Source: Terriglobia bacterium (GTDB taxonomy: Bacteria > Acidobacteriota > Terriglobia > Bryobacterales > Bryobacteraceae). Taken from it: a DNA stretch of 64,000 nucleotides. The notes under the pieces were generated by a model. It saw only the letters and a list, made by a program, of their open reading frames with translations. It did not search any database and had not been told where the DNA came from. The stretch covers positions 186,001 to 250,000 of the forward strand of contig JAIQFE010000001.1 in the NCBI GenBank assembly GCA_020073445.1, in the 5' to 3' direction. Below are positions 6,574 to 8,794 of this stretch, in pieces. The position numbers were made by a program, and so were the translations under genes. The first letter of the stretch is position 1; each line of letters starts with the position of its first letter.

Positions 6574-7134
6574 CTAATAGAACAGGTACTTCCGCCACTG
6601 GTCGTCGCTCTTGCCGAGCAGGCGCATCAGGTGCCGGCTAGTGTGCAAGCTGAACGGCCGGGGGGCGCGCGCCAGACGCATCCCGGCTTCCTCCGGCGTC
6701 CGGCTACCCTTGCGATTATTGCAGTTATGGCAGCAGGCCACCAAGTTCTCCCACGTGGTTTCACCTTTGCGCGAACGCGGCATCACATGATCCAGTGTCA
6801 GATCGCCCGAGCTCATGGTCTTCATGCAGTACTGGCAGGTGTAGCGGTCGCGCATCAGGATGTTCTTGCGCGATAAAGCTCGCGTCTGGTGCGGAATGCG
6901 GCGGTATTCGAGCAGGCGGATCACACTCGGCACCTTGATCGCCGAGCGTGCCGAGTGAACATGGCCGTTGGCGTGTTCTTCAGCCGCGGCGACTCCCTTG
7001 AGCACCAGCACCAGAGCGCGCCGCGCCGCGCACACGTTAATCGGCTCAAAGCTCGAGTTCAGCACTAGGACTGGCCGGTGCAGACGTTCCCCAGTCGTGG
7101 TTGAGGCATGTGTATAGATCTGTGCGGCGCTCAT
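6574..7134 (-). CDS. HNH endonuclease
   Basis: 186 residues from the ATG at 7134, which overlaps the comF stop by 4 bases (ATGA), so the two genes are translationally coupled. The C-terminal half holds a standard HNH nuclease module: zinc knuckle CQYC, catalytic region [21 protein letters not shown], second knuckle [11 protein letters not shown]. The N-terminal part ([26 protein letters not shown]) matches the widespread single HNH proteins of bacteria whose biological role is unresolved. Longer starts inside comF are possible but would add comF-frame sequence without family support. Confidence 0.92.
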
Positions 7135-7937
7135 ACGCGTCCTCCCGTGGCAGTTAAAGAAAGTTCTACGGACTGGCGGCGGTCGGTCCGCGCCAGTGCC
7201 AGCAAAGCGACATGCGCGGCTCCCGCGCGTTTCAAAACTCGTGCGCACGCGCTGGCCGTGGCGCCCGTGGTGACTACGTCGTCCACCAGCAGCACTCGCA
7301 TTCCGGCAAGCGATTTACCGCGCGGCATTCGAAAGGCCCCGCTCATATTGAGGCGGCGTTTCGCGTTAGTAAGTCCGGCTTGCGGACGCGTGGCCTTCTT
7401 CCGGCGAATCACGTTTCGCACCGGAACATTCCACTTCTTCCCGATTTCGCGCGCCAAGAGATCCGACTGGTTGAACCCGCGCTGCCACTGTTTGAACCAG
7501 TGCAGCGGCATAGGAACGATGACGTCGAAACTTACCTCGCGCGGCAGCGCCTGCGCCAAGAACCTTCCAAAGGTTCCCGCCAGCGGCCGCACGCCGCTGT
7601 ATTTGAATAAGTGGACCAGTTCCCGCAGCGTGCCTTCGTAGGATCCGTACGAATACACCGCATCGAAGCCTTGCAGCCCCAGCCGGCACAGCCCGCAGCG
7701 GCCGGTTTCATCCAGCGGGAAGCGATTGACGAACGGCATTCTGCACGCCACGCAGAAGTATTCGGCGATCAGCGGCTCTGGCTCCGCCAGGCACTTGCCG
7801 CAAACCGGGATTCTGGAAAACGCCTGCAGGGATTCGCCGCAGACGCGGCAATCATCTGGAAAAACAAGGCGGGAAGCGGCGTCGAGTAGGCCGCAGGATA
7901 CCCTTTTCGCGACGCGACCGACGCCGTTCGCCGAAAT
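7131..7937 (-). CDS. comF: ComF family phosphoribosyltransferase-like protein
   Basis: ComF proteins help take up single-stranded DNA in transformation in several bacteria. The PRTase domain is clear: [20 protein letters not shown], and the PRPP loop [14 protein letters not shown]. The frame continues upstream of the first conventional start (GTG at 7751) and encodes the family zinc-ribbon cysteines: CRVCGE, PVCGKC and FCVAC, with CGLC further on. No ATG, GTG or TTG exists between the in-frame stop (7977-7979) and 7751. The most plausible start is ATT at 7937, with GGAG 7 bases before it, giving 268 residues. The gene is coupled to the HNH nuclease gene. Confidence 0.82.
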
Positions 7938-7939
7938 AA

Positions 7940-7967
7940 AGTAGCTCCGACTAGGGAGCAGGCTACT
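7940..7967 (-). promoter_or_regulatory. Stem-loop overlapping the presumed comF ribosome-binding site
   Basis: Read on the minus strand, AGTAG and CTCC pair with GGAG and CTACT around a 6-base loop, with a 4-base bulge on one side. The GGAG is the best ribosome-binding site for the ATT start of comF. The segment also holds CAGGCTACTC, the core of the dispersed repeat found 75 bases away, so it may instead be a remnant of that repeat. Confidence 0.45.
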
Positions 7968-8042
7968 CGAGAAAACTCACCTCCGAGGCCCAACCCAAAT
8001 TCCAGTGTACACCCAGCGCCCTATGGGGGGTCGGTGCTTGAG

Positions 8043-8122
8043 GGGGACAGGCTACTCTGTCCCCTCGCGTAAACTTTCGACTGCGCGCACCAGCCTGGGA
8101 GTGGACGGAGCTGCCTGTCCCC
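8043..8122 (+). repeat. Palindrome-ended dispersed repeat, copy 2
   Basis: An 80-bp element in the gap between two minus-strand genes, in the same orientation as copy 1 (3641-3719). It begins GGGGACAGGCTACTCTGTCC and ends CGGAGCTGCCTGTCCCC. The centre differs from copy 1 at several places but keeps CGTAAA and TGGGAGTGGAC. The ends are inverted repeats and each end is itself a hairpin. Confidence 0.85.
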
Positions 8123-8134
8123 TTCGGCGTCGCC

Positions 8135-8794
8135 TTATATGGACATGTAAAACAAGCTCAGCCTCGGCAGGCCCGCTGCTTCCATTACTTTACGATCCAG
8201 GAATTGCCTCTCGAGCGTGGCCAGTTGTTCGGCGCTCATCTTGCTGCGATACGGCTTCAGCTCCTGATCGAGCGAGCGGCGCGCCTCAAACAACGCTTCT
8301 TCGCTGGCCGTCGAACGGGCGCGAGCAATCATCTTCTCTTCGATCGCCGTCAGCCTCTGCTCCAGTTGCTCCAGATCGCGATACAGCTCTTCGAGGTTTA
8401 AACGTTCAAGCGACTCCGCGAGATCGACATGCCCCGCCGCCCGCAGGGCATCGGCATTTCGTTGGACGTGTGCGCGAACATCGTCGATCGAAAACGGCGG
8501 CGGCGTTTCCTTGCGCTTGGCTGGTGCGCCCGCCGCCAGCGACTGAACTTCCTCCGCCACGGCCTGGGCGCAATAGGCGAGGGAGTTCACCATCTGGAAA
8601 CGCGCCCGCGGCGGACGAGCACGCCACTTCTCGAACGCCGCGTCGATCCCGCGCAGAACTGCTTCCAGGGGAACGCCCGAATTCTTCCAACCCTCGATCA
8701 GCGCCCAATCGAGCGGCGACAGCAGAAAGAGTCCCGTACCCCGCGCGCGCTGGAAATGCTCCTCGATTTCCGTGAAGTAGTTGAAGTAATTCAA
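8135..8794 (-). CDS. Conserved hypothetical protein
   Basis: 219 residues, no signal peptide or membrane segment. The N-terminus (YFNYFTEIEEHFQRARGTG, then LSPLDWALIEGWKNSGVPLEAVLRGIDAAFEKW) suggests a small helical domain like those seen next to core genes in acidobacteria. From about residue 120 it is helical and charged (LEELYRDLEQLEQRLTAIEEKM), probably a coiled coil. It lies 17 bases downstream of coaX in the valS-birA-coaX run, so it is likely the last gene of that operon. No function can be named. Confidence 0.75.
   Translation of the reverse strand: MNYFNYFTEIEEHFQRARGTGLFLLSPLDWALIEGWKNSGVPLEAVLRGIDAAFEKWRARPPRARFQMVNSLAYCAQAVAEEVQSLAAGAPAKRKETPPPFSIDDVRAHVQRNADALRAAGHVDLAESLERLNLEELYRDLEQLEQRLTAIEEKMIARARSTASEEALFEARRSLDQELKPYRSKMSAEQLATLERQFLDRKVMEAAGLPRLSLFYMSI

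Follow-up and report, generated by a model that had tools for sequence, protein, structure and literature searches.

A conserved UUC codon as the probable translation start of comF in Terriglobia

A comF gene that lacks an ordinary start codon

Where does translation of comF begin when its reading frame offers no ATG, GTG or TTG ahead of the region encoding the zinc ribbon? The question is raised by a window of 64,000 nucleotides from a soil bacterium of the class Terriglobia, in which comF lies on the minus strand in a frame open between TGA 7979-7977 and the stop at 7133-7131. The first-pass annotation had stated that this frame holds no ATG, GTG or TTG before GTG 7751 and that the region 5' of this codon encodes CRVCGE, PVCGKC and FCVAC, and the minus-strand frame read-out bore out both statements. 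The features of the coding region are as follows.

7131..7973, minus strand: comF as read from UUC, the proposed start; 280 codons plus stop
7173..7457, minus strand: phosphoribosyltransferase domain (Pfam PF00156, 34.1 bits, cut-off 26.3)
7686..7850, minus strand: double zinc ribbon; across an alignment of 32 relatives seven of its eight Cys never vary and the remaining one hardly does
7749..7751, minus strand: GTG, the first in-frame NTG, inside the zinc ribbon; a start here would delete half of the ribbon

The translation carries the C-terminal phosphoribosyltransferase domain with its PRPP motif and the N-terminal double zinc ribbon of the ComF family, the latter recognized by its Cys conservation, as Pfam DZR_2 scored 25.6 bits on it, slightly below the cut-off of 27. 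TIGR00201 (comF), though the second-best NCBIfam match, reached 109 bits against a curated cut-off of 233.55, and the protein is therefore filed as ComF-like on the basis of its domain order. Since both domains are present, initiation at 7751 would leave a halved ribbon. Among the 246 relatives of the TTC type described below, 117 have no in-frame NTG from the proposed TTC start as far as the first Cys of the zinc ribbon; in 66 of those 117, moreover, a stop in the comF frame lies no more than 10 codons upstream. Judged by these comparisons, the missing NTG start in comF is more than chance.

A Shine-Dalgarno sequence and a TTC codon ahead of comF

The features around the 5' end of the frame, all on the minus strand, are the following.

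8004..8009, minus strand: TACACT, a -10-like box assigned by eye and weakly
7980..7984, minus strand: GGAGG, Shine-Dalgarno (SD) core, 6 nt ahead of TTC; spacing of 6 in 221 of 246 relatives
7978..7980, minus strand: GTG overlapping the SD and opening the five-codon frame GTG AGT TTT CTC GAG TAG; a rival start
7977..7979, minus strand: TGA, in frame with comF at codon -2 counted from TTC; 39 of 246 relatives have TGA at this codon
7974..7976, minus strand: GTT, occupying codon -1 in the conserved RYY-TTC core
7971..7973, minus strand: TTC, proposed start codon (UUC) of comF, on comparative evidence
7963..7965, minus strand: TAG in the GTG/YTT frame; a stop two or three codons past YTT in 152 of 242 relatives
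7935..7937, minus strand: ATT, the candidate start of the first-pass annotation, rejected as a conserved start

TGA 7979-7977 bars comF-frame translation from further upstream, and the first comF codon is therefore codon -1, TTC or something later. It had been suggested earlier that comF is a rare-start gene initiating at ATT 7937, and a GGAG (7948-7945) does stand seven bases ahead of this ATT as described. On comparison with close comF homologues the ATT was found to be confined to the closest three relatives, L003-L005, whose protein identity is 87-90%, with other codons taking its place elsewhere in the genus. The idea of a rare non-NTG start in an undamaged gene is thus upheld, but not ATT 7937 as that start. 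A stronger site, absent from that annotation, is GGAGG 7984-7980, six bases ahead of TTC 7973-7971.

The GGAG at 7948-7945 falls on the 3' side of a stem that is predicted at 7959-7944 (GCTCC-N6-GGAGC), and this stem, which lies early in comF, is terminator-like and is followed by TACTTTATTT. Upstream of GGAGG, boxes of the TACACT, TAAACT or TATACT kind were noticed by eye in many relatives; the box of the window is a weak assignment because a promoter consensus scan of 7900-8200 returned no sites.

Distribution of the arrangement among relatives

We began at the level of the order, where 61 relatives, most with a highly similar comF, were searched. In all 41 of the first order loci (L002-L042 minus repeats of the window, plus L046) we observed the same motif, namely a purine-rich SD followed by GTG or TTG, three further bases and NTTC, and about 180 distinct order sequences, a set selected to carry TG and TTC at the right places, gave the consensus GGAGG TGN RYY TTC YCN AGT AG. 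In other families of the class the SD and the TTC are kept while the GTG is often gone, for example AGGAGG GTCGTC TTC AGC AGT AGC, and the SD-TTC arrangement was present in all 37 genomes of family f11 that were read. Families f5, f7 and f9 mostly have ordinary ATG, GTG or TTG candidates, which are clear in L322 and L364 and ambiguous in L043, L313, L358, L370 and L377.

Order and class taken together, 246 of 269 distinct comF 5' regions carry an in-frame TTC 5-9 nt after an SD core, the distance being exactly 6 nt in 221. The scored regions are a fetched subset of the genomes with a comF match, leaving aside L060-L126 (mostly other phyla), tRNA loci, the fragment L382, sequences repeating a 230-nt stretch and matches below 110 bits. 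Four of the 246 (L309, L313, L320, L355) resemble chance matches by eye. Among the 23 regions that fail the SD-TTC criterion, L039, L041 and L173 have TTC in place with a weak SD, and L159 carries TTC but was anchored at the wrong Cys. Of 67 named comF regions, mostly from other phyla, 6 satisfied the same criterion. In the comF genes a normally spaced SD thus precedes a conserved codon that is not ATG, GTG or TTG, and on these sequence comparisons the arrangement is class-wide. Apparent stops inside comF in genus g29 lay at or past the C terminus in most of the 19 sequences read.

As regards the neighbourhood, the gene directly upstream of comF in the class loci L303-L306, L310 and L316-L318 seems to end in a Cys-rich CIECQEKQEQG-like motif, which we take to be DksA-like; the upstream neighbours of comF in members of the order differ from this gene.

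Conservation and coding signature at the TTC

The pattern of substitution was analyzed in 45 disjoint close pairs, with the four likely chance matches dropped and the TTC of L042 shifted by one codon by hand. The proposed start TTC was changed in none of the 45 pairs, while the other shared Phe codons differed between TTC and TTT in 73 of 317 cases, and therefore the frozen TTC does not behave as ordinary Phe coding; elsewhere in the 246 genes Phe is encoded 1662 times by TTC and 972 times by TTT. Upstream, at codons -14 to -5, 277 of 450 codons were changed and 21 of the changes were synonymous. At codons +1 to +6, by comparison, 70 of 270 were changed, 34 of them synonymously; synonymous changes made up 141 of 343 changed codons over +1 to +20, and at +21 to +33 the figures were 207 of 585 changed and 126 synonymous. 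An equally sharp coding edge after TTC was seen with 137 overlapping pairs. Coding constraint therefore sets in directly after TTC 7973-7971, about 12 codons before ATT 7937.

Codon -1 was changed in eight of the 45 pairs, twice synonymously, and among the 246 relatives it is GTC in 130, ATC in 44, GCC in 34, GTT in 11 and GCT in 8. As this codon is varied and changes non-synonymously, TTC is the only candidate common to all. The three bases T-T-C are also the sole invariant columns in an alignment of 32 hand-chosen regions, and TTC is retained where indels shift its distance from the SD (5-9 nt). The Ser that follows TTC alternates between TCN and AGY codons. Codon +2 is AGT in 170 of 242 sequences, with AGC in only 8 among the Ser codons there. 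The string AGTAG after TTC NNN (7963-7967 in the window) is conserved as nucleotides in 117 of 242 and thereby places a TAG in frame with GTG 7980.

As TTC is the one codon in the vicinity of the SD that all these lineages conserve, we infer that the ribosome starts at UUC 7973-7971, led by GGAGG, and on the comparative evidence we regard this as the probable start of comF translation. The spacing is in keeping with the genome itself, in which ATG after GGAGG peaks at a distance of 6 (18 sites against at most 12 at any other), although a crude set of own-genome open reading frames of 100 or more codons with NTG after GGAGG had no clear spacing peak. The same crude set displayed no preference for Ser or Pro at residue 2 (5 of 53), so that Ser or Pro after TTC is unsupported as a start signature. 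In this genome GGAGGNNNRYYTTC occurs at 36 sites against 22 for the reversed control, and among the 30 sites examined comF alone resembles a gene start.

Alternative explanations

The order-level motif, in which comF is shifted by +1 relative to the GTG frame, first suggested a prfB-like slip, in which ribosomes would initiate at GTG 7980 and undergo a programmed +1 shift at codon 3 (UUU or CUU to UUC), helped by the adjacent SD and by the frequent stop two or three codons on. This was our initial leading idea until class-level relatives without the GTG displaced it, and we now consider it unlikely. It would accommodate the NTG that 195 of 246 relatives have at the corresponding position, the retention of YTT|C, the replacement of GTG by TTG in L039 and L041 and the early first-frame stop. 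But 51 of the 246 have no matching NTG (four of them being the chance matches, while L042 was scored at a wrong TTC), and 30 of the 51, including the same four, have no NTG in any frame within 15 nt before TTC. One extra base moves the GTG off and breaks its frame in three order-level genera (L139 with L140, L230, L241), and L139 additionally has an ATG in the frame of the slip. The codon at the slip site is CTT in 154, TTT in 22, ATT in 2 and GTT in 2 of 180 sequences, a set chosen to have TTC, and with the ATT or GTT of L037, L038 and L040 the tRNA would re-pair poorly. Furthermore, the GTG overlaps the SD, and therefore nothing sets it in the P site.

In prfB an SD stands 3 nt before CTTT and a premature TGA is followed by C (PMC12421855). 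The comF region is similar in its SD-like GGAGG, in YTT|C (CTT|T in prfB) and in its often early first-frame stop. It differs in that 5 nt separate SD and slip codon, in that the stop is not always there and is mostly TAG (within six codons past YTT: TAG 145, TAA 8, TGA 7), and in that the needed canonical first-frame start is missing from some relatives (51 of 246). In the window the slip codon TTT is followed by CTC GAG TAG and not directly by TGA.

We give somewhat less credence to a second possibility, namely that RYY-TTC serves regulation, as a DNA or RNA element, while comF starts at a downstream weak codon, here ATT 7937 with a GGAG of its own. Conservation of RYY-TTC and AGT as nucleotides would suit such an element, as would the pairing of GAGG with YUUC predicted by RNAalifold (four pairs, -1.6 kcal/mol). 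Yet none of these four pairs is kept by a two-sided compensatory change, the bias towards synonymous substitution begins immediately after TTC, no downstream weak start codon was found conserved by eye in the relatives read, and the GGAG ahead of ATT falls in the predicted stem.

Ranked just below the element is a translated leader formed by the GTG...TAG mini-frame, with comF reached by termination and reinitiation near the TAG at UUC or another weak codon. The mini-frame stops at codon 5 or 6 in 130 of 180 sequences (a set selected for TG and TTC), and the excess of AGT over AGC at codon +2 builds the other-frame TAG; against this, the GTG is missing in the same 51 of 246 and a large minority has no nearby stop in that frame. 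A sequencing error, which the first-pass annotation had offered as its other option, or an assembly error, for which the 102 contigs of the assembly might speak, is refuted as a general cause and is of negligible probability: 246 of the 269 distinct sequences show the same arrangement, and its start-less form recurs in many genera and families, among them single-contig genomes such as G357, G432 and G470.

How a UUC start might work

If comF does start at UUC, GGAGG six bases upstream would place the start on this codon, and either the initiator tRNA (anticodon CAU) would mispair with it, at positions 1 and 3, so that comF would be translated inefficiently and perhaps under IF3 gating, or another tRNA would be used. 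Our guess is that a weak initiator-tRNA start under IF3 control would act as a fixed brake on ComF. UUC initiation has reportedly been achieved with an initiator tRNA carrying a GAA anticodon. In another experimental system, UUC-start complexes mature in vitro to productive 70S in the absence of IF3, so that the P site of a productive 70S complex can accept UUC (PMC7907450). Speaking against a UUC start, the codon-anticodon survey of Katoh and Suga found that mismatches at the first or second position mostly gave no full product and that they can lead to drop-off and then restart from the second codon (PMC10158994). In view of both sets of results the IF3-gated weak start is a guess and not a result.

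The UUC experiments used artificial systems. Among the 46 tRNA matches (RF00005) in the genome of the window, three of them with CAT, no GAA initiator-like tRNA was found: the single GAA tRNA is an ordinary-looking, elongator-like tRNA-Phe with G1-C72, and no second one occurs among the 46 typed, a list that may be incomplete (Ile-GAU, for example, was not seen). Initiation at UUC also leaves the conserved codon -1 (RYY), the AGT at +2 and the neighbouring-frame TAG unexplained.

The nearest parallel is the rare start of Escherichia coli infC, which begins with AUU and serves the autoregulation of IF3. Like infC, comF is an SD-led gene with a conserved non-NTG start; it differs in that UUC has two mismatches with the initiator anticodon against one in infC, in that its start does not drift and in that ComF is not a translation factor. 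In the genus of the window infC starts with ATG in all 15 genomes read. In ten genomes of families f2 and f3, read by eye, the aligned infC start is ATT in five, ATC in two and ATA in one (L462-L465, L467, L469, L477 and L481), and in two it is neither, GYT TTC following the SD. These two, L466 and L468 (infC of G038 and G040, genus g17), read GGAGGGTAGRGYTTTC with no NTG, ATT, ATC or ATA at the aligned start, and infC of genus g17 is thus possibly another gene with a UUC start, here the very gene that encodes IF3.

The absence of drift among weak codons, unlike in infC of relatives, is a counterpoint to a merely weak start. One may tentatively suppose, as a possibility we hold to be less probable than the UUC start as such, that UUC has been the dedicated comF start since the common ancestor of several Terriglobia families and is specifically recognized, either by a route other than fMet-tRNA mispairing or through an IF3-gated switch that admits UUC alone. 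Phe-tRNA initiation, or drop-off of fMet-tRNA followed by restart, would be such special routes.

Implications

We know of no natural bacterial gene that uses UUC as its start codon, and a literature search, in which subscription journals were mostly outside reach, turned up neither a frameshift in comF nor a naturally occurring UUC start. As a working rule, a bacterial gene starts at NTG or at a codon one change away from AUG. If the UUC start of comF is true, a natural start with two mismatches to the initiator anticodon, conserved across families, would break this rule, and IF3 fidelity would gain a natural target besides infC. Because comF has no NTG start, gene finders that seek NTG would cut it within the zinc ribbon in Terriglobia, here at the first NTG, 7751. 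The invariance of UUC in comF, set against the drift of infC among weak codons in relatives, is a question that can be put directly to the bench.
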